Shown here in pieces: positions 16,964 through 53,123 of a stretch of 64,000 bases of DNA. The position numbers were made by a program, and so were the translations under genes. Every line of letters begins with the position of its first letter. Positions within the stretch are counted from its first letter, which is position 1. The notes under the pieces were generated by a model, which was not told the DNA's origin, did no database searches, and was given only the letters and a program-made list of their open reading frames with translations. This DNA is from a virus. Location: the IMG/VR virus record IMGVR_UViG_3300029267_005544, positions 62,001-126,000 of that record, one strand, 5' to 3'.

Positions 16964-18757
16964 TTAATTAATTTCAAACAACTTTTTTTTCAATATTTCA
17001 GAGTTAATTTCATCTAACCAGAATTTATTATTAAACTGTTGATTAGAAAAAATTATACTTCCAGTTTTACAAAATGCGCTTTGATTATATGAATTAATTA
17101 TATATGAGTTTGGAAGCGCTATTGCTTCAGCTAATGTATTAAACGCTGACTGTTTAACCATCTTTCCTGAAAAATTAGTATTTTGAAGAATATTTTCATA
17201 ATTAACAGCCGGACCAAGCATAGGATTTGTATTTCCTGATTTATTTATTTCTTCAAATATTTTGTACATTACTCCGCCGCCAATGATAGATCGCAACCAT
17301 GGCTTTTTAGTAAATATTTCAGCAAGTTGTTTTGGTCCATATCCTTTTGCTTTTAATTTTAATCCGGCATAAAGTGCCGCAAGCCCGGAAAGAACTGCCG
17401 CAGGAGTTCCTATTTTCAATTCTTTTTTAGGCTCTTCCCATGGAAGGTCTTGTGAAGCAGCTTCTTTGAGCATTGCTATAGAAAGTCTTGGTCGCAGCAA
17501 TGACGGAAAGCAACTTCTTTTTTCCAGACAAAATGCAAACGATTTTGCAAGAGCATCATCGTAATATTTATTCGATATGTCTATATATTGTGGTTCGACT
17601 TCACTGCGATAATCAAATATGGTACCCTGTTTCTCCAATTCGTCAGCAAGTGATTTTTTGCCAATACGTATTAGAACTATTCTTTGAAACTCATCTGGTT
17701 TTGGATGTATACCAAGTCCTAATATAGTAGATAATATTTTACTTAATGGATGAGTAGCCGCAACAGAGTCTAATAAATTATTTGGAATTTTTGGCTCTGC
17801 AGCAATGACTTTATTCATTTTTTCATCAAGGGCTTTTCTTATGACAGTTGAGTTATCTATAGGTTTCATTGTCCCATCGATATCATCTTTTCCAAGTGCG
17901 CCAACCTCTTTATCTATATCACTTTCTTTATTCACAGAAGAAATTTTATCAAACATATCATCTGTTACACCATATGCGTCAGCAAGATATGCTGACGGTA
18001 TAATAATACTTGCAGATGCGGCTTTTCCAAGAATAAAAGAGGTTCTATCTGCCCCTATATACACTCTTGATAAATCAAAAAATCTTGGAAAATCGTTCCA
18101 TGCAAAAACCATTGTTCCTGGAAGTATAGTTTTACCAAGCTCTTTAGACCATAGTGCAGCAAGCTCAGGAGTTACTATTTGCCCCATATAATTTTTAAGA
18201 TGTTTACAATATGCGTCTTTTGTTTTTGATTTATTATCACATATATTACAACGATCATACTTTACTCTACAACCCATCGACACTGCGACAGGTTCACCAT
18301 TCTCAAGGGCAGTAACAATATCAGCAGCTTTGACCACATCAATTGCCACTATAAGTTCGACACGATGAAGAACAGGGTTCCAGTGAGCAAATATAATTTC
18401 ACCAAACGATCGGCTCGGATCCTTATTTACATGATGTTTATAGAATTTTGCATAGTATTCAAAGGTTTTATACCCATAATCATTTGCAGTATTCATGTCA
18501 GTACGCAATGATTTATGGGAAAGCCCGGTCTCCGGAAACGCATCGCCGTTACGATTTGCACCCCAAACCTCATAAGATCCAAGTGCATTAATTACAACAT
18601 AATAACGCTCCGGCTTACGTTTAAGGTTAAGAATAACCTTCATTAATTCCGGAGCGTAATTACTCGCTGCAGTTTTATTGAGATGCATAATTGAATTAAC
18701 CGGGACGATATGGTTCCCGGTCTCATCAATAGAATCATATTGGATATATTTAATCAT
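16964..18757 (-). CDS. Prohead (capsid maturation) protease
   Basis: 597 residues. The N-terminal ~250 residues match phage prohead proteases: WGANRNGDAFPE (about 65-75), a histidine in YKHHVNKDPSRSFGEI (H108/H109), IIFAHWNP, and the probable nucleophile S160 in GEPVAVSMGCRV. A zinc-like cluster follows (C170, C173, C184, H186: CNIC...YCKHLKNYMGQ). The long C-terminal part (250-597) is not recognised and has an Ala/Gly membrane-like stretch (AAVLSGLAALYAGLKLKAKG). KTAA near residue 29 and KEAA near 430 could be self-cleavage sites. The ribosome site is weak. It lies upstream of the scaffold and capsid genes, as usual. Confidence 0.8.
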   Translation of the reverse strand: MIKYIQYDSIDETGNHIVPVNSIMHLNKTAASNYAPELMKVILNLKRKPERYYVVINALGSYEVWGANRNGDAFPETGLSHKSLRTDMNTANDYGYKTFEYYAKFYKHHVNKDPSRSFGEIIFAHWNPVLHRVELIVAIDVVKAADIVTALENGEPVAVSMGCRVKYDRCNICDNKSKTKDAYCKHLKNYMGQIVTPELAALWSKELGKTILPGTMVFAWNDFPRFFDLSRVYIGADRTSFILGKAASASIIIPSAYLADAYGVTDDMFDKISSVNKESDIDKEVGALGKDDIDGTMKPIDNSTVIRKALDEKMNKVIAAEPKIPNNLLDSVAATHPLSKILSTILGLGIHPKPDEFQRIVLIRIGKKSLADELEKQGTIFDYRSEVEPQYIDISNKYYDDALAKSFAFCLEKRSCFPSLLRPRLSIAMLKEAASQDLPWEEPKKELKIGTPAAVLSGLAALYAGLKLKAKGYGPKQLAEIFTKKPWLRSIIGGGVMYKIFEEINKSGNTNPMLGPAVNYENILQNTNFSGKMVKQSAFNTLAEAIALPNSYIINSYNQSAFCKTGSIIFSNQQFNNKFWLDEINSEILKKKLFEIN

Positions 18758-27462: not shown

Positions 27463-28578
27463 ATGAAGAATAGGACGGTACATCTTTTCTTTCATGATGA
27501 TGTTGACGGAATTGTATCAGCAGCAATGATAATGAAAGGCTTTTTCAATGATCATGTTTATCGGCTTTATCCAGTAAAGTCCTCTATGAGAGGGGAGAAG
27601 TTTGACACCACCATCAAAAATCTACGCAAAGAAGCTCCGGAAGATGCCATTATAATAGTTGATTATCAGCACCATGCAGATGCTGATTTGTGGATTGATC
27701 ACCATTATAATCCTGACCTCGGTGAAAATGAATTGAAAAATGGAAATTTATTTTACAATTCAAAAGTAAAATCTGCTGCAAGGGTTATATATAATTGGTT
27801 TGAAAGCAATTCTGTATTAAAGGGCGCTGTGAATCAACATATCGTTGATATTGTAGATATGATTGATAGTGCTGGTTACAAAGATATCGATTATATATTC
27901 TCCAGCACCGAGCCACTTATGATTCTTAAGGCTTACCTGGAACGCCTGTCAATTTATGTCGATTCTACTTATTGCAGAATAGTTGAATTAATTTATCATT
28001 ATGATTTCGATATTGATAAAGTGTTATTTACGCTAAATATCGATAATAACATTATTGATGAATTGAGAAAGTCAGCTAATGCTATTGGAAAGGCTATGGT
28101 TGTTAATGGTGTAATGGGTGTAACTGAGATGAATCGCTTATACGCATACCCAAGATATTCAGAATATTTTGTAAAGCCTGATTTAATGTATTGTATCAGA
28201 GTTGTTCATTTGGGTGGTGACCGCGTCCAAATGGATGTTGGATATAATAAATGGCAAGATAAACCGTGTAAAGTACATATTGGTAAATTACTTGGTAGCC
28301 TTGAATATGCTATAAGTGGAGGTGGTCATTTTACTGTTGGTGGTGCGATAATCATAGAAAATGATATTGAGCGATTTATTGATGATATGTGCGTTCAGTT
28401 TAATGGTTCGGAGGACAGTATGGAAAAATATTCTGTTGATAAAACAGATCCTGTTGAGAAAAAATCTGATGAATTAATTAAAACCGGTGACGCTAAAACA
28501 AAAGCCGATGCCAGGAGCAAAGTAACATCAAAATTGGAAGGAGGAGATTCAGAACGTGTTCAAAGCGGGGACGTCTAA
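27463..28578 (+). CDS. DHH/DHHA1-family phosphoesterase
   Basis: 371 residues, with AAAAAGGAG before the ATG. It shows HDDVDGIVSAAM (11-22, in place of the usual H-D-DG start), VDYQHH near 70, WIDHHYNPD (the DHH signature) near 78, and GGGHFTVGG near 287 for the DHHA1 substrate site. Relatives are nanoRNases, pAp phosphatases and RecJ nucleases, which use two metal ions to cut short nucleic acids or nucleotides. A Lys/Glu-rich tail follows. The end overlaps the reverse transcriptase start by 23 bases, so the two are coupled. In this context it could process or oppose the RT product; that role is inferred. Confidence 0.8.
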   Translation: MKNRTVHLFFHDDVDGIVSAAMIMKGFFNDHVYRLYPVKSSMRGEKFDTTIKNLRKEAPEDAIIIVDYQHHADADLWIDHHYNPDLGENELKNGNLFYNSKVKSAARVIYNWFESNSVLKGAVNQHIVDIVDMIDSAGYKDIDYIFSSTEPLMILKAYLERLSIYVDSTYCRIVELIYHYDFDIDKVLFTLNIDNNIIDELRKSANAIGKAMVVNGVMGVTEMNRLYAYPRYSEYFVKPDLMYCIRVVHLGGDRVQMDVGYNKWQDKPCKVHIGKLLGSLEYAISGGGHFTVGGAIIIENDIERFIDDMCVQFNGSEDSMEKYSVDKTDPVEKKSDELIKTGDAKTKADARSKVTSKLEGGDSERVQSGDV

Positions 28579-29626
28579 TTTCGACCTCAAACAGGTTCTA
28601 GGTGCAGAGCTAGAAACAGTCGATGAAATAATCGCTAATAAAGAAAATCATATTGAGCGAATATCAATTCCAAAAAAAAGCGGGGGCAAAAGAAATATTA
28701 TAGCCCCCGACCCGCAATTAAAATATATTCAAAAAAGTATATATTGGCGTGTATTCAGAAGGTATAAAGCTGACTCATCAGCTCACGGATTTGTTTCAAA
28801 AAGAGGAATCGTTACAAATGCCGATTGCCATGTTGGAGCCAAATGTCTTGGAAAAATAGATATTAAAGATTTTTTTGATTCAATATCTATTGACCATTTA
28901 AAAAATTGTCTTTTTGGAAATAAACATATCTGCAGATATTGCAAGCATTATGAAAGAATGCTTGATGGAAGATGCAATCCATCATTGTATCACAATAAAA
29001 CCCAAGTTTTTGATTTCAAATGTGAAGAAATTAAAGCAGTACATATACCTGAATATTGCGAAGAAACAGGATACATTTCATTATTTAATAGAATTATAGA
29101 ACTTTGCACTTTTGAAGGATTTACCGCGCAAGGATTCCCGACATCCCCTATGCTTGCCAATATAGTAATGCGCGGATTCGATAAATCAATGAAAGAATTC
29201 TGTACCACAGAAGGAATTGCATACACAAGATATGCAGACGATCTTGCTTTCAGCAGTCATAATTTGACAAAATTCGAACTGAAAAAGAAAATAAAACAAA
29301 AAGCCTATCAATTATTATGGGCTTATGGATTTACTCCAAATAAAAAGAAAACTATATGGAAATCAAGCGCCGGCCGACTTAAAATATGCGGTGTGGTAGT
29401 GAATGTTAAAAAATCAGTACAACGTAGAGATGTACATAAATTCAGAGCAGAAGTACATCATGCTACAGTAAAAAATGCTGATAAAACAACAAAAGGGGAT
29501 TTGAGAAAATTAAAGGGATGGGCATCATTTTTAATGTCCATAGATCCTGTAAAGGGTAAAAAATACATGAATCAGCTTCTCAAGTTTGAAGCAGATAAAT
29601 TTTCCATAAAATCAAAAGGAATATAA
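28556..29626 (+). CDS. Retron-like reverse transcriptase
   Basis: 356 residues, GTG start after AAGGAGGAG. Motifs: HGFVSKRGIVTNADCH (77-92), which includes the NAxxH of retron region X; motif A KIDIKDFFDSI (100-110); AQGFPTSPMLANIV (191-204); the catalytic YADD (226-229); and ICGVVVN (277-283), corresponding to the VTG of region Y. A cysteine cluster (C126, C129, C140, C156) is inserted between motif A and the QGFPTSP motif. Length and motifs fit stand-alone retron RTs and not group II introns, which are longer and carry maturase domains. It is followed at once by an RNase H gene and then a structured RNA. The retron assignment is a strong inference; msDNA production is untested. Confidence 0.85.
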   Translation: MFKAGTSNFDLKQVLGAELETVDEIIANKENHIERISIPKKSGGKRNIIAPDPQLKYIQKSIYWRVFRRYKADSSAHGFVSKRGIVTNADCHVGAKCLGKIDIKDFFDSISIDHLKNCLFGNKHICRYCKHYERMLDGRCNPSLYHNKTQVFDFKCEEIKAVHIPEYCEETGYISLFNRIIELCTFEGFTAQGFPTSPMLANIVMRGFDKSMKEFCTTEGIAYTRYADDLAFSSHNLTKFELKKKIKQKAYQLLWAYGFTPNKKKTIWKSSAGRLKICGVVVNVKKSVQRRDVHKFRAEVHHATVKNADKTTKGDLRKLKGWASFLMSIDPVKGKKYMNQLLKFEADKFSIKSKGI

Positions 29627-29632
29627 TAAATA

Positions 29633-30136
29633 GTGGAATTTATGATATATACAGACGGGGGTTGTTCAGGAAACCAAAGAGGCGCTAACTGTCCGGGCGG
29701 ATATGGTTATATAATCATTGATGCTGGAAATAATATATTGCGTCGTGGTGGTGGTTATCGAATCAATGTTACCAATAACCAGATGGAATTAATGGCTGTT
29801 ATTCAAGGAATGAGGGCTTTAAAAAAGCTTCTGGATCAAGAATATGGTGGTGCTAAAAACCACTCATGTTTAATAAGGCCTGATTCTAAATATGTTTCAG
29901 ACAATTACGAAGAATACTTACCTACATGGAAGAGAAATGGTTGGAGAAAGTCAAACAGAAAACCAGTTCTTAATGTTGCGTTATGGAAAAAGCTGGATGC
30001 TTTGACCCCCGAATTTAAAGCATTCAAATTTAGTTGGGTCAAGGGTCATGCCCGAAGCAAGTTTAATAATATGGCTGACGGTATTGCTCAGGACAAAATT
30101 AAAGAAGCAAAAGAATCCATAATCAATTCTGTGTAG
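29633..30136 (+). CDS. rnhA: Ribonuclease HI
   Basis: 167 residues. Acidic active-site residues are in place: D8 (IYTDGGCSGN), E52 (NNQMELMAVI), D84 (RPDSKYV) and D149 (NNMADG), with the histidine in WVKGHARS. YLPTWKRNGWR is typical of the family. It cuts the RNA strand of RNA-DNA hybrids. The start may be GTG 29633 or ATG 29642; neither has a strong site. It follows the RT by 6 bases. Retrons normally need host RNase H to trim the template, so a phage-encoded copy here makes functional sense. Confidence 0.88.
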   Translation: MEFMIYTDGGCSGNQRGANCPGGYGYIIIDAGNNILRRGGGYRINVTNNQMELMAVIQGMRALKKLLDQEYGGAKNHSCLIRPDSKYVSDNYEEYLPTWKRNGWRKSNRKPVLNVALWKKLDALTPEFKAFKFSWVKGHARSKFNNMADGIAQDKIKEAKESIINSV

Positions 30137-30144
30137 GAGGAGCA

Positions 30145-30321
30145 ATGAAAAAAGATGAAAATGGTCAAGAGAAACATAATGCTCTGGTGGCAAAATTTAA
30201 TCTTGCGGTTGATGCTGTATCATCATTTGCAAAAGGAATTTTTCCTTTTACAGTAAGGCTTGTAGTCGGCTTAAAAGATATATTTCATAAAAATGAAAAA
30301 TCGCCTGAATCTAAAAATTAA
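30145..30321 (+). CDS. Small amphipathic protein at the end of the RT operon
   Basis: 58 residues, with TAGGAGGAGC before the ATG at 30145. A hydrophobic middle (AVDAVSSFAKGIFPFTVRLV, then VGLK) lies between charged ends. It could bind or insert in a membrane. It ends 11 bases before the structured RNA. In known retrons small or membrane proteins can be effectors; here that is only a possibility. Confidence 0.6.
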   Translation: MKKDENGQEKHNALVAKFNLAVDAVSSFAKGIFPFTVRLVVGLKDIFHKNEKSPESKN

Positions 30322-30329
30322 CTATTGTG
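30318..30329 (+). promoter_or_regulatory. Candidate promoter motif before the structured RNA
   Basis: TTAACTATTGTG ends 3 bases before the 5' arm of the RNA at 30333. The same core appears before 33743, 50006 and 61874. This placement suits a start site at the first pairing arm. Inferred. Confidence 0.35.
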
Positions 30330-30332
30330 AAA

Positions 30333-30588
30333 GGAGAGAGTAAAATCTCTCACCTGAAACGATTCGTTTTGGGGGGTGAGTAATAAATGGTGCGGGCTTT
30401 TATCTCTCTTCAAGTTGAAGAGAGTATAAAATCCGAGTCAATCTCCGCCTGGTCACAGACCCGACACCACAACGTGTCGGGTCTGTGCGGGCCAGGCTTG
30501 GTGAGAACCAGCCTGGCCCCCGACCCCAGTCAGGTTCTGTTCCACAATAAGTTAATTGGAAACTCTCTCCCGACCAGAGGGTTTTTTT
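30333..30588 (+). ncRNA. Candidate retron msr-msd RNA
   Basis: No convincing gene lies here, but the fold is rich. The ends pair: GGAGAGAGT (30333-30341) with ACTCTCTCC (30562-30570), like retron a1/a2 arms. Inside are an 8-bp hairpin (30404-30411 with 30417-30424), a 13-bp perfect hairpin (30455-30467 with 30474-30486) extended by GCCTGGTC (30447-30454) pairing with GGCCAGGC (30490-30497), and a rival hairpin in which GGCCAGGC pairs with GCCTGGCC (30511-30518). A weak terminator-like end (AGAGGG then seven T) closes at 30588. Unlike most retrons, the RNA lies downstream of the RT gene. The assignment rests on position beside a retron-like RT and on the closing arms. Confidence 0.6.
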
Positions 30589-30632: not shown

Positions 30633-30696
30633 TAACCTGTAACTCAGGGGAAGAGTGCTGGAAACAGAAGTCGGAGGTTCGAGTCCTCTCAGGTTT
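30633..30696 (+). ncRNA. tRNA-like element without an anticodon arm
   Basis: The sequence folds as a tRNA in all but the middle: a 7-base acceptor arm (TAACCTG with CAGGTTT, one terminal mismatch), TA at positions 8-9, a 4-bp D stem (ACTC/GAGT) with loop AGGGGAA, and a 5-bp T stem (GGAGG/CCTCT) with loop TTCGAGT. Where the 17-base anticodon arm should be there is only CTG-GAAA-CAG, a 3-bp stem with a GNRA tetraloop. It cannot decode. No CCA is encoded. It could be a decayed tRNA or a tRNA mimic. Confidence 0.6.
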
Positions 30697-30710
30697 TTTT
30701 TATCTATAAT

Positions 30711-45921: not shown

Positions 45922-48900
45922 ATGTCTTCTAAATATAAATTAAGCAAAGGACAATTGAAAACTTTATTTGCATCAGCAGACATGCTGATGGAGGGTCAGT
46001 ACCGCGAACTCTACAAGCGTCTCGGATGGCGCGAAGGCGGTAACAAAAATTTCCACTGCTGGAATACTTCAGGACACTCAGAAGGTGTCGATTCCCACGC
46101 CTCCCTGTCAATAAATGAACAAACCGGTCAATGGCACTGTCACACTTGTGATATTAAGGGTAACTTTCAGTCGTACTGGCGTGATTACATTAAAGGTACT
46201 GCTCCATACGGTGACCACTACCATGATTTCATTATAGACTTCCTCGGCATGACTGAGGGCCAATATACCGTCCCGTTCGCTGAGAGTTTTGATGATCCTA
46301 AGTGCGCTGAATATTATGAAGATTTATTAAAGCTTCATGCTAAGCTCGATGAAATCAGAAAAAAGAAGGGTGAGGGCAATTATGTCCTGAAAGATGAGTT
46401 GGTAGCCCTGGCAAACGAGGAATCATCTCTCCCGATGAAGCTATTGGACGTATGTGTAGAAAGATTACTCAATAACCCGCAGAAAATGAAATACCTACTC
46501 GAAGAGCGTAAAATTAATGAAGATATGATACGGGCATTACGCCTCGGCCTTGATGATAGAGGAAGAGTAGTTTTTCCACAGATCAACGCCGAGGGTGAGC
46601 TGCTCAACATGAAACTGTATGACCCATGGTGCAGTGATAAGCGCTTTAAATGGCAATACAGCCACAAGGGCCGTGAAACATGTCCGACTCCCATGGTGAA
46701 TTTCACCAACAACTCATTGCTCATGATGGCCGGGGAACCTGATATGCTTTGCGCTATCGGTTTTGGTTTTGAGAACGCTGTCACAATGGGTGCAGAACGC
46801 AATACCGATGTGGTTAAGGTATTTGGCCGGGAAAGGGCGAAGCAGCTGTTCTCCGGGAAGGAAATAACGATCTGCCTGGATGCTGATGATACCGGGAAAG
46901 CGGCTGCTCAGAAACTGGCGCATTCTCTGTATCCGTTTGCGAAGCAGATAAAGATAATCAATCTTGATCAGTCGAATATAAATCCGTTCGGACTCGATCC
47001 TGATAAAATGATTGAAGTTACCACTAAGAATGGGAAGAAGAAAATGAAGCGGGTTGAAACCGACTTCACTGATTTTATGAAGAAGAATGGGTTCGAAAAC
47101 GATGCCAAAGAAAGATTTATTGAATTAATAAAAAATACCGAAGCGTATACAGAAAATATTGACCGTATTGAAAAGAAATTATACAAAGTAACTCTTCAAG
47201 AAAGTCGTATGTCAAAATATTATTCTTCTGATGAATCAAAAGAGCTTGAAGTTATTGCTGCTGTTGGGGAATTTAATGATAGCGCTTATCAGTATTCTGA
47301 TCATTTTTGTTTAAGTTGCCCCCAAACAGGAGATCCAAGTAAAAAGCTGTATGCATCATGTAAAAAATGTTCAGTACCATCAATACCTGAATTTCGTGAT
47401 AAGGAATATGTTGATTTCTTTTTAATAAGAGGAGAAATACCAAAAGAATATTCAGGATACCCTTCATGTATAAGTGTAAACGCTCACGAAATATTAGACC
47501 TTATTGAATGTGCAGAAAGTAAAAAAAATAAAAATCTTAAATTGATATGCGGTATAAGCCCAACATGTCAGCAATTTAAAGTAAGACCGGTGACTACTAA
47601 AAAAATACTCAGAGCAAGGCTCGCTAGAGACGTTTCTGAATATGGCGATAGTAGTGTTGATGGTTCTGCAGAAAGCACTTCAATAGAAATGGATGCATAT
47701 ATTCTTGGTGATATGGATATATATCCTAATAAATCATATAAATTTACCGGCGTTCAAACAGTATCGCCTCAAACACAGCATCGAGTATTATACATACATA
47801 AAGCTGAGCCAATAACTACATCAATTGATAATTTTGTCATGGATCAAGAAATTCATGATATGCTTAAAATATTTAGACCAAAAGGTGGTGAATCTGTAGA
47901 TAGTGCGCTTGACAGACGTTATGAGGTATTTGCTCATGCAGCAGGTGTTACCGGTAGAAGAGAAATGTTTCTTTTAAACGACCTTGCATTCTTTTCATCA
48001 GCAGAAATAGATAATAAAAGATTATTTCCTAATTTAAAAAGAGGATGGGTTGAAGTCCTCATAGGTGGTGACACCAGATGTTGTAAAACATTGATTAGTA
48101 AATTTCTAATGAATTATTATAAATATGGTGAAATGGTTTCTGGATCAAGTGCAATAACAAGAGCAGGTCTTATGGGAGGGACAATTTACGTTGGTAAAAA
48201 TCCTAAAGTATCTTGGGGAAAAATACCAATGAATGATGGTCGCTGTTTAATATTTGATGAACTCAGTATGATTAAACAAGAAATATTGAGTGATTTAACC
48301 GATTGTAGATCGTCAGGTATTATTGATGTCACGACAATAAGCGGTTCTAAAAAAGCTCCCGCAAGAGTAGCAAAAATAATGTTATCAAATGCGCGATCTT
48401 GGACTGGCGATAAGGCGCCTTCGTTTGGTAGTGGCATGAGTTTTCTTAAAAATCTCTGTTTTAAAGATGAAATATTATCTCGATTTGATATAGCGTGGAT
48501 AGTAAAGGCAGGTGACATTAATTATGAAAAGCTTGATGATAATTATAGGCAGCCAACTACTGAATTTACTTCTTTTCAATGCAGATATTTATTGATGTGG
48601 GGAAAATCAAGAAAACCAGATCAATATATATATGAAGAAGGAATAGAAACATTTATAAATGAAAGTCAGAAAAAATTACTTGCAATGTTTCATACAAGTA
48701 CGCAGCTTATAAATCAAGAGATAAGATTAAAAATAGCCCGAATGGCAAAATCAATTGCAGTAATGTGTTATTCAACTGTTAAAAATGATTGGGAAAAAGT
48801 ATATGTTAAAAAAGAACATGTCGATTTTATTGTAAGACTGTTAATACGATTATATTGCCATAGAAATATGGGTTTTGATATATACTCACAACAACAAAGA

Positions 48901-49347
48901 AGTCAGGAAAAACTTGGCGATATGCGTTTTATGGAGAATATTATAAAATATATAGAACCAAGCTCTTTACTTCTTGAAGATGAATTTACAGACAAAACAC
49001 TTCAACAAATTTTTTCTGACTACCTTCAGCGCGTATGGGATGGGCAGCTTTCAATGGTAGATGCAAAAAATGATAAAATAAGAACTACCGGTATGACTAC
49101 TTCTCAAGGTCTGCCGAAATTGATTAATACATTAGTCTCGCGTAAATGTTTAATAAGGGTGCGTGGCTCGTACAGAAAAACACCTATATTTAATGAATGG
49201 TTAAAAGATATGATAAAAAAGGAGAAAAGTGAAGAGTTGTCAAATATACTCGAAAATCCAGGGAATGAATCAAGTGCTGAAGACCTTAAGATCGTCCAGA
49301 ACTTTATCAAAAATAGTAAACCAGATCAACAGGAATTACAAGGTTGA
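45922..49347 (+). CDS. TOPRIM primase fused to MCM-like helicase
   Basis: 1141 residues, with AAGGAGG 12 bases before the ATG. N-terminal zinc motif (C46, H52, C73, C76) and TOPRIM domain with AGEPDMLCAIG near 270 and ICLDADDTG near 316 resemble DnaG-type primases. A second part has the layout of an MCM N-terminal domain: four cysteines (CLSC near 463 and CKKC near 481) and an OB-like strand run (MDAYILGDMDIYPNKSYKFT). The AAA+ part shows Walker A GGDTRCCKT (~715), Walker B GRCLIFDELS (~775), sensor-1 IMLSNAR (~820) and LSRFD (~852), the last typical of MCM. It would prime and unwind DNA at the fork. A winged-helix-like end is possible. The first ~370 codons are less AT-rich than the rest. 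Confidence 0.85.
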   Translation: MSSKYKLSKGQLKTLFASADMLMEGQYRELYKRLGWREGGNKNFHCWNTSGHSEGVDSHASLSINEQTGQWHCHTCDIKGNFQSYWRDYIKGTAPYGDHYHDFIIDFLGMTEGQYTVPFAESFDDPKCAEYYEDLLKLHAKLDEIRKKKGEGNYVLKDELVALANEESSLPMKLLDVCVERLLNNPQKMKYLLEERKINEDMIRALRLGLDDRGRVVFPQINAEGELLNMKLYDPWCSDKRFKWQYSHKGRETCPTPMVNFTNNSLLMMAGEPDMLCAIGFGFENAVTMGAERNTDVVKVFGRERAKQLFSGKEITICLDADDTGKAAAQKLAHSLYPFAKQIKIINLDQSNINPFGLDPDKMIEVTTKNGKKKMKRVETDFTDFMKKNGFENDAKERFIELIKNTEAYTENIDRIEKKLYKVTLQESRMSKYYSSDESKELEVIAAVGEFNDSAYQYSDHFCLSCPQTGDPSKKLYASCKKCSVPSIPEFRDKEYVDFFLIRGEIPKEYSGYPSCISVNAHEILDLIECAESKKNKNLKLICGISPTCQQFKVRPVTTKKILRARLARDVSEYGDSSVDGSAESTSIEMDAYILGDMDIYPNKSYKFTGVQTVSPQTQHRVLYIHKAEPITTSIDNFVMDQEIHDMLKIFRPKGGESVDSALDRRYEVFAHAAGVTGRREMFLLNDLAFFSSAEIDNKRLFPNLKRGWVEVLIGGDTRCCKTLISKFLMNYYKYGEMVSGSSAITRAGLMGGTIYVGKNPKVSWGKIPMNDGRCLIFDELSMIKQEILSDLTDCRSSGIIDVTTISGSKKAPARVAKIMLSNARSWTGDKAPSFGSGMSFLKNLCFKDEILSRFDIAWIVKAGDINYEKLDDNYRQPTTEFTSFQCRYLLMWGKSRKPDQYIYEEGIETFINESQKKLLAMFHTSTQLINQEIRLKIARMAKSIAVMCYSTVKNDWEKVYVKKEHVDFIVRLLIRLYCHRNMGFDIYSQQQRSQEKLGDMRFMENIIKYIEPSSLLLEDEFTDKTLQQIFSDYLQRVWDGQLSMVDAKNDKIRTTGMTTSQGLPKLINTLVSRKCLIRVRGSYRKTPIFNEWLKDMIKKEKSEELSNILENPGNESSAEDLKIVQNFIKNSKPDQQELQG

Positions 49348-49936
49348 TTGGAATTCGTGGGATGTTAAAAATGCAGAAGAAGTTCTTGATTTATTTCTCC
49401 AAAGAAAGCTATGCAAAAAAGTAAATGATAGAAAAGAGCAATATAATTTATTGCTTGTAGCATTTTGTAAAGTCGAAAATAATATAGGTGCTATGTTAAA
49501 ATCAAATATAAAAAAAACGCCAGAATTAAAAAAATTTATGGTTACACATTCTATATTTGATGTTAGCACAAAAAAAAGAAGAGATTGGCTTCAGCGTATT
49601 ATGATAAATATTTTAAAACCAACACAAAAAGAATTGTATGAATGGTTTCATCCAAAATCAATTCCTGAAGAATTGCTTTATAAATTTAAAATATTTGAAC
49701 CTGAACAAATAATTCTTGAAATTGATCCTATAAAAATTCAATATGGTATGTGGCGAAAAGGTAGTAATGGAAGATTAGTAGATCCAATACATATTATATA
49801 TGAAGATTTTGAAGGCATAAAGTTTTTAAAACAGGAAGAGGTTGCAAAAGAACTTGCGAAATATCAAGAAATTGAAAGTGACCCTGTTATAATTAATCAT
49901 GATGATTGGTTAATAGAAGATGATTTACCGTTTTAG
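49229..49936 (+). CDS. Protein of unknown function overlapping the primase-helicase gene
   Basis: 235 residues from GTG 49229, which follows AAGGAG by 4 bases. This start overlaps the previous gene by 119 bases; a shorter form starting at ATG 49265 is the alternative. Helical and Lys-rich (SIFDVSTKKRRDWLQRIMIN), ending in the acidic INHDDWLIEDDLPF, a tail like that of SSB-type proteins. It may partner the helicase. Family not recognised. Confidence 0.55.
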   Translation: MKSCQIYSKIQGMNQVLKTLRSSRTLSKIVNQINRNYKVDWNSWDVKNAEEVLDLFLQRKLCKKVNDRKEQYNLLLVAFCKVENNIGAMLKSNIKKTPELKKFMVTHSIFDVSTKKRRDWLQRIMINILKPTQKELYEWFHPKSIPEELLYKFKIFEPEQIILEIDPIKIQYGMWRKGSNGRLVDPIHIIYEDFEGIKFLKQEEVAKELAKYQEIESDPVIINHDDWLIEDDLPF

Positions 49937-51899: not shown

Positions 51900-51914
51900 A
51901 AAAAAATTAAAGTA

Positions 51915-52894
51915 CAAGAGTGATACTGGTGATTCGCCAGTGCGAAAATATTTATGTGGACGCGATGTTACATAGCGCAGGGACCTGCAGCGGGAGTCAT
52001 TAACACTCCCGATTCCAGGTTCGGGCCTGAGTCCTACACCTGGAATCGGGTAGCATAATGACTCCCGCTGCAGGTGGTCGGCGCTAGTAACATCTGCTAA
52101 ACCTGAATACACGATTTTAATCGGCTGAAATCCCGGAAAATGCGGTAGCTTTTCCGGGATAGCAGCACGATCTAAAATCGCTCATTAAGGTCTATCTTAG
52201 TTGTACTTCAAAAAGAATATTAAGCATGAGAGCTTTACACCTGATGTTTCGTCAGGGTAGCTTACCGCTAAAGCTGACATCCCTCACGAGTTGGTCGGAA
52301 AATAAATTCCTGTACCAATATCCGTCGGGATGACCGTCAGCTTTCGCTACTTTTCATCCCGACGAATGTTGGACCAGGAATTAATTTTCCTCTTGCCAAC
52401 TCGCAGTGATGATCTATATTAGTCATGCTTTTGAGCGGGAAAGGTGATGAGTATCACCTTCCCGCCATTATTGTAAGGGCGAATCTGATGGTTCATCAGA
52501 AATGAAGTTAAATAAGTACACAGTATTGTGTTACCTGGAGGAACACGGGCCCATCCGCCCTGCCTGTTTCAGTCTTCTTACAGAAGACTTACACGGCGTG
52601 CGGTAGGGCCCGCCGTTCCCCAGCAAACCCAATCTGTATCAAAATTATAGTTACAATTTAATAACGCAAGTTGCTCAATCGAGACGTTTCGTCTCGGCCC
52701 GATTTTGGGTGCGCAGGCACCATCTGAAAAATTATTCCAGGTCCGTTCCCGGATACTCGGGTTCGCTGGAATAAGCGATACCCGGGTATCCGTTCAGGAC
52801 CGTTTCACAATTTTTCAATAGGTGCTCTGCTTTCTTGACCAGCAAAATATTCTATATAGTTGCGTCAATGGCGTGAAAGGCGCTAATTTTTTTT
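51915..52894 (+). ncRNA. Giant ornate structured RNA, about 980 nt
   Basis: No credible gene lies here, but dense long-range base pairing does. Perfect or near-perfect helices: 51984-52002 with 52056-52074 (19 bp); 52008-52020 with 52038-52050 (13 bp); 51964-51978 with 52081-52094 (outer stem); 52130-52140 with 52150-52160 (11 bp) inside 52112-52119 with 52173-52180; 52287-52312 with 52375-52403 (24 pairs, small internal loop); 52323-52333 with 52354-52364 (11 bp); 52435-52448 with 52453-52465; 52535-52552 with 52606-52623; 52571-52578 with 52582-52589; 52750-52762 with 52780-52792. Two pseudoknots: 52270-52278 with 52336-52344 and 52732-52740 with 52766-52774, 9 bp each. It ends at eight T (52887-52894). 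The style matches giant phage RNAs such as GOLLD and ROOL. Confidence 0.85.
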
Positions 52895-52929
52895 AAATAA
52901 GATTTGATATATAAGAATTAAAAAAAAAG

Positions 52930-53065
52930 GATGGTGTTTCGCCATCATGTTAATTAATTAAGACCTCAAAAATTGATGGTGCAGCTCGGCAACAGTCCTC
53001 AGTTTTAATCCTTGATAAGAATTAAAACTCACGGACTTTTTGCCCGGCTGCTCCACAATTTTTTT
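52930..53065 (+). ncRNA. Second structured RNA or elaborate terminator
   Basis: A 7-bp hairpin (52930-52936 with 52940-52946, loop TTT) is followed by one long stem of several parts: AAAAATTG (52968-52975) with CAATTTTT (53056-53063), 52981-52992 with 53040-53051 (11 of 12), GTCC with GGAC, and GTTTTAAT (53002-53009) with ATTAAAAC (53021-53028). A run of seven T closes it. Nothing coding fits here. It is separate from the large RNA by about 35 AT-rich bases. Confidence 0.6.
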
Positions 53066-53123
53066 CACCTTGTAATATCAATATTAGTTATATATCAAAT
53101 TACATTAATATTGGAGGGTTTTA

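Follow-up and report, generated by a model that had tools for sequence, protein, structure and literature searches.

Retrons are bacterial anti-phage defences that normally comprise one template per reverse transcriptase (RT), beside an effector. Among the hallmarks of their RNA are a G, at a1's inner end, from which synthesis is primed, and a UUU-looped msr stem to which the RT binds (PMC6868368). Apparent duplicate msr-msd copies with no RT nearby occur in bacteria in the case of Retron-Nex1 (Ne160), so that the existence of multiple templates is not wholly new (PMC6868368). As a control query we used the ncRNA sequence of Retron-Eco1 (Ec86), which had matches of at least 99% identity in 48 genomes of E. 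coli, where genes of the 'retron St85 family' lie next to it; in it a1 is followed by G, the GGATGTTGTTTCGGCATCC hairpin, the msd hairpin and a G before a2. Our literature search, which covered mainly openly accessible papers and is not proof of absence, returned no report of phage retron arrays, nor did it turn up an RT/RNase H operon of the phage core whose templates, some in tandem and others scattered, vary in their msd.

The locus described here lies in the window, i.e. the whole stretch of 64,000 nucleotides that was analysed, which corresponds to positions 62001-126000 of the host record G000 (186,450 bases); coordinates are those of the window unless preceded by the name of a record. 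We read it as an array that very probably consists of five tandem msr-msd templates of a phage-encoded retron, on the grounds of the anatomy of the units, their conservation, the pairing that is kept in them, the presence of an RT/RNase H operon, and synteny. The array occupies the following stretch, among genes for a primase-helicase, an RDF-like protein and an exonuclease:

51900-53100: intergenic structured stretch, between the gene of a 356-aa Gp3-like protein and a 158-aa ORF, with an RNase T/PD-(D/E)XK exonuclease gene next.

An earlier note on this DNA had described about 1 kb of it as a gene-free region full of strong helices, and on both points it was right. There is no convincing ORF across 51900-53100, whose start is overlapped only by a 57-aa out-of-frame tail and by a 77-aa antisense ORF, and the helices are borne out by arm pairs, closing repeats and folding z-scores. 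The minimum free energy of 51900-52900 is -449.6 kcal/mol, and in a GC-corrected scan of all 186 kb the strongest folding outlier of G000 is the segment 113921-115121 (window 51921-53121), with z = -8.5. The 19-bp helix singled out in that note (51984-52002/52056-52074) is real, but it is the outer part of a longer arm pair (51983-52020/52038-52075), in which arms of 38 nt are 87% complementary; a second arm pair, of 37 nt, is formed by 52297-52333 and 52354-52390. Among the closing repeats are 51907-51917/52201-52211 and 52902-52914/53088-53100, the second of which pairs at 13 of 13 positions. The T-run that had been taken for the end of the element is also present, at 52869-52895, but the structured region continues to about 53101 with a fifth unit. 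Within G000 the DNA of the array has no match beyond itself and its own palindromes, and a comparison with INPHARED phages at the DNA level gave only chance matches of about 30 nt. Overall, the element is genuine: it is carried by the phage, does not code for protein, is structured and conserved, and shows compensatory change.

What had been seen as one multi-branched RNA resolves into five consecutive modules, each shut by its own a1/a2 helix and each with the same order of parts: a1, a G, a G-NUU-C hairpin, a long variable hairpin, a U-rich stretch with AG at its end, and a2. The modules and the elements between them are:

51910-52208, plus strand: unit 1, found by the scanner described below, with relatives at the same position in contigs L007, L001 and L011; a1 AAGTACAA (51910-51917), candidate priming G (51918), msr hairpin TACTGGTGATTCGCCAGTG (51925-51943), then two long msd hairpins, and a2 TTGTACTT (52201-52208) directly preceded by AG.
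52222-52430, plus strand: unit 2; a1 AAGCATGA and G, msr hairpin CCTGATGTTTCGTCAGG, msd hairpin with 37-nt arms, AG, a2 TCATGCTT.
52434-52466, plus strand: linker hairpin between units 2 and 3, kept with altered sequence in G001 and G007.
52470-52657, plus strand: unit 3; a1 ATTGTAA and G, msr hairpin TCTGATGGTTCATCAGA, AG, a2 TTACAAT.
52664-52865, plus strand: unit 4; a1 ACGCAA and G, msr hairpin TCGAGACGTTTCGTCTCGG, AG, a2 TTGCGT.
52869-52895, plus strand: intrinsic-terminator-like hairpin and T-run, 3' of unit 4 and before unit 5.
52901-53101, plus strand: unit 5; a1 GATTTGATATATAA and G, msr hairpin GATGGTGTTTCGCCATC, AG, a2 TTATATATCAAATT.

Against dinucleotide shuffles the folding z-scores of the five units range from -7.8 to -13.9 (-13.1, -13.9, -8.5, -10.1 and -7.8 for units 1 to 5, respectively), with the msd as the dominant contribution. 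All units share one orientation; their a1/a2 helices, 6-14 bp long as compared with about 8-30 nt for the terminal repeats of retrons, differ in sequence from unit to unit. Each folds into P1, a UUU-type msr hairpin and a long msd hairpin like the Ec86 control, with which the units have in common the a1/a2 pairing, the G after a1, the msd hairpin, the G before a2, and the msr triloop (NUU here, UUU within GUUUC in Ec86) closed by a G-C pair.

Since msd length varies too much for a covariance model, units were counted with a rule-based scanner and shuffled controls, in which consecutive 2-base blocks were permuted (an approximation). In G000 the scanner recognized the five array units and two more elsewhere, with 0.63 expected by chance per 186 kb; a relaxed version added a third, G000:51198-51527, and gave 34 matches over 1.07 Mb against 0.83 expected, among which those of G004 duplicate those of G003 and the one at G006:144163 is doubtful. 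The units outside the window, all with little or no coding potential, are:

G000:17481-17678: further unit.
G000:51198-51527: further unit.
G000:51686-51906: further unit.

In 37 unit cores both partners change in all P1 pairs and in 5 of the 6 msr pairs, the remaining msr pair being an invariant G-C; this count (11 of 12) is partly circular, because the scanner itself demanded pairing, and support for pairing that is not circular comes from the whole-unit folding z-scores and from the cis ncRNA described below. The G after a1 is invariant in the same cores; it was required by the scanner, but had first been noticed by eye in unselected copies. The context of this candidate priming G is AAG[ACGT], as compared with the usual TAGC. 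The G-NUU-C loop is present in every unit, with N = T in 30 of 37.

These data bear directly on the proposal of the earlier note that the region is one giant ornate RNA, either a divergent GOLLD or ROOL or a new class; such an RNA would act as a single fold or as an RNA multimer. In its favor, the element is about 1 kb long, is phage-borne and has an intricate fold, and as a large structured non-coding region carried by a phage it does resemble GOLLD and ROOL. However, a search of the array against Rfam gave no family that reached the gathering score, and no plausible candidate at E<=10, a result that would be weak alone, as Rfam misses the genuine Ec86 ncRNA too (a blindness that may explain why arrays of this kind lack annotation). 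Membership in a single giant class, known or new, is argued against more directly by the modular construction: the units are closed separately, occur singly at three other places in the genome, vary in number, are interrupted by a terminator-like site between units 4 and 5, and are accompanied by a retron-type RT. We consider a giant RNA of this sort extremely improbable.

A second alternative is that these are palindromes acting at the level of DNA (attC-like sites, transposon ends or origin hairpins) with no role as RNA. Terminal inverted repeats, long hairpins, and the gain and loss of units are what such elements would display; but the unpaired motifs are strand-specific (the G after a1, the GNUUC loop, the U-rich stretch with AG) and the units share one orientation, the terminal repeats vary by unit as they would not in a transposon family, and there is an association with a retron RT, all of which makes this explanation highly improbable.

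Relatives were collected from IMG/VR through the Gp3-like protein, a DNA motif, and alignments of the primase-helicase and of the exonuclease; they include contigs L001 (42 kb), L007 (208 kb), L011 (181 kb), L014/L015 (64/85 kb), L018 (126 kb) and L019 (175 kb). The Gp3-like gene was not found in GTDB genomes, and contig L006, which matches the motif of unit 2, was discarded as a chance match, being unrelated and without the module. A similar non-coding element occupies the matching intergenic place in L001, L007, L011 and L014, and in L019 elements lie between small genes nearby; in L018 the element is absent at the syntenic place of the array. Units identified as such hold the matching syntenic place in G001, G002, G003, G007 and G012. 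It can be seen that across relatives the short motifs are conserved, as are the msr and the ends at matching positions; the large stems have diverged in sequence and remain able to pair. Positional relatives from different phages are 66-100% identical in the msr (97-100% for unit 2 in G001 and G007) and 55-76% in the msd, the DNA identity of the neighbouring gene between G000 and G001 being 75%; within G000, identity between the solo unit at 17481 and unit 5 is 88% in the msr and 61% in the msd. Unit 3 is missing in L001/G007, where the linker runs straight into unit 4, and in L007 and L014 a GC-rich hairpin with a T-run is found at the position matching the terminator-like site 52869-52895. 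Directly 3' of unit 5 in L001 (6095-6772) there is an RRXRR (IscB-like) ORF with a weak match to HEARO RNA, which is probably a mobile-element insertion adjoining the array.

The anatomy of the units led us to predict an RT, and a PF00078 search of G000 then yielded a single match, at window 28667-29395, about 22 kb from the array. The operon to which it belongs is organized as follows:

27463-28578, plus strand: DHH-superfamily protein, 371 aa, with a fold like RecJ/PAP phosphatase/GdpP.
28556-29626, plus strand: retron-type RT, 356 aa, with YADD, NAXXH (NADCH), and ICG replacing VTG.
29633-30136, plus strand: RNase HI, 167 aa, adjoining the RT.
30145-30321, plus strand: small, partly hydrophobic ORF of 58 aa that separates RNase HI from the cis ncRNA.
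30322-30551, plus strand: cis retron-like ncRNA, 3' of RNase HI and of the 58-aa ORF, with a1 CTATTGTGAAA, a2 TTCCACAATAAG, a stem-loop GGAGAG/CTCTC, a GNUUC stem-loop and a conserved CTGGCCCCCGACCCCAGTCAGGTTCTG.
30563-30588, plus strand: terminator ending the operon, with a conserved CCGACC loop and a T-run.

The best sequence match of the RT in the PDB is the Ec86 RT (1.6e-28), which is also the best fold match of its predicted structure, a model of modest confidence (mean pLDDT 65) built from 7 sequences. Its best family matches are RT_XIII and RT_III-A in PADLOC and retron_St85_RT in NCBIfam, the latter with a score of 210.8, under the St85 family cut-off of 235; partner proteins of the RT_XIII, RT_III-A and St85 types were not found. 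With respect to these families the RT stands apart in a phage-only clade among those sampled: in our tree the 18 viral rows form one clade (100/98) without sampled bacterial members, independently of two bacterial rows (L189 and L220) that lack YxDD and are probably misframed. YADD and the NAXXH of region X are present in all 18 members, in which the VTG of region Y is mostly ICG, VCG or LCG. INPHARED contains no close relative of this RT, the best match being below 35% identity. The RT is present in all 7 longer relatives (G001-G007), contigs that had been found without using it, and was not found in G008, a 20-kb fragment; the order DHH protein, RT, RNase HI is retained in the relatives inspected. 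Since retron RTs rely on RNase H1 for proper msDNA termination (PMC8989520), an RNase HI encoded by the phage fits well in this setting. The C-terminal tail of the DHH protein (27463-28578), MEKxxVDxxDPVEKxADELxKTG, is conserved in its relatives. Just after the operon, at 30633-30697, lies a tRNA-like gene (39.7 bits in Rfam) that is not matched by ARAGORN. Diversity-generating retroelements also combine a phage-borne RT with an RNA template; this assignment was rejected, as G000 contains no template/variable repeat pair and the RT is of the retron type.

The cis ncRNA was first spotted as a folding outlier and then located, by means of its motif, in 13 contigs. In an alignment of eight copies, with the 5' and 3' parts spliced together, compensating changes of both partners preserve 14 of the 29 consensus pairs, each in one sequence or more. 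Its GGAGAG/CUCUC first stem-loop and its GNUUC stem-loop have counterparts in Ec86. It would thus be the RT's own operon template, with a conserved end, and the array units look like extra templates in trans.

G005, the most divergent relative, has the RT and no unit by the scanner rule, and no unit was found in several shorter contigs with the RT. At 48000-49500 of G005 (L071) there is a different tandem hairpin array, in which an AAGAGAAGCTCTT motif is repeated with variable stems in between, and which may be that phage's own template array with another msr; G005 also has a GTTTC hairpin downstream of its RNase HI gene. Two contigs intended as negative controls, G020 and G021 (RT 29-32% identical), carry units, and thus do not serve as controls. 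At least two units are found near phage RTs from outside the clade (about 29-32% identical) in L114 (6684-7227), L116 (6811-7307) and L126 (2650-3726), which suggests that the arrangement extends to more distant phage lineages and is not a single oddity.

In comparison with Ec86, then, the phage has several templates for its RT, both in tandem and scattered, adds its own RNase HI and a DHH gene, has no known effector, carries xCG in place of VTG, and has made the RT part of the phage core. In comparison with the duplicates of Retron-Nex1, the phage units differ from each other in a1/a2 and msd, are syntenic across phages, and have a matching RT in the genome.

According to the mechanism that we propose, each unit would be transcribed from the plus strand, and a1 would pair with a2. 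The RT (28556-29626) would recognize the GNUUC hairpin of the msr, prime on the 2'-OH of the G that follows a1 directly, and copy the RNA, starting immediately upstream of the G that precedes a2 and proceeding across the long variable hairpin; RNase HI (29633-30136) would remove the template. Several branched msDNAs would be produced by one RT in trans, plus one from the cis ncRNA (30322-30551). As an example, the RT-DNA is predicted to start near 5'-TAAGATAGACC for unit 1 and near 5'-TAATATAGATC for unit 2, joined in both cases to the RNA at the G after a1. Expression, priming at that G and msDNA formation are inferred.

What purpose such msDNAs might serve can be considered in the light of the operon's content and conservation. 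No known retron effector domain was recognized in the RT operon with PADLOC, NCBIfam or Pfam, and for this reason we do not file it as a retron defence system. An array directed at competing phages, i.e. a form of superinfection exclusion, would need an unrecognised effector, for example the small ORF 30145-30321; this ORF may possibly encode an effector or membrane protein, and similar small ORFs are found in G002, G005 and G006; in relatives, too, such an ORF adjoins the cis ncRNA. Known retrons do act against phages, have effectors, and may be carried by prophages (PMC6868368, PMC8867640). Nonetheless, besides the lack of a known effector domain, the array is not beside a candidate effector, and within the lineage the RT behaves like a core gene, a status that argues against casual defence cargo; we therefore regard exclusion of other phages as unlikely.

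The core status of the RT, which every one of the lineage's eight longer contigs encodes, would agree with msDNAs used in replication, recombination or packaging, as primers, origin structures or a supply of ssDNA. The location of the array among primase-helicase, RDF-like and exonuclease genes points in the same direction, as do RNase HI and the RecJ-fold protein, which are both nucleic-acid processing enzymes. On the other hand, a strict replication signal is poorly suited by an msd that varies, a copy number that changes and positions that are scattered, and the msd matches no other part of the genome, which argues against its use as a recombination donor. A role of this type is conceivable, if on balance somewhat doubtful.

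For retron templates with a conserved msr and a variable msd, we tentatively put forward another role as our leading guess: the variable ssDNA hairpins may act as decoys, or as a sponge, for defence proteins of the host whose triggers are phage DNA or the ssDNA-binding proteins of the phage. Retron Eco8 reportedly senses phage SSB via its msDNA (PMC13158370). By analogy, and speculatively, phage msDNAs could saturate Eco8-like sensors, or other defence proteins that bind ssDNA. At a more general level, we think it reasonably probable that this lineage of large phages has a core machine, composed of RT, RNase HI, DHH protein and cis ncRNA, that acts in trans on msr-msd units, both tandem and scattered, whose msd changes fast, and that supplies a shifting set of structured ssDNAs to the benefit of the phage, in counter-defence or replication.

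In this phage lineage, then, the retron RT is a core gene, RNase HI is encoded alongside, and the templates are many, five of them in tandem; their parts for recognition are conserved and the parts that code for DNA are variable. If the msDNAs are made, one RT for many natural templates would be useful in multiplexed ssDNA production, and these phages would turn reverse-transcribed ssDNA to their own advantage, the opposite of the known use of retrons against phages.
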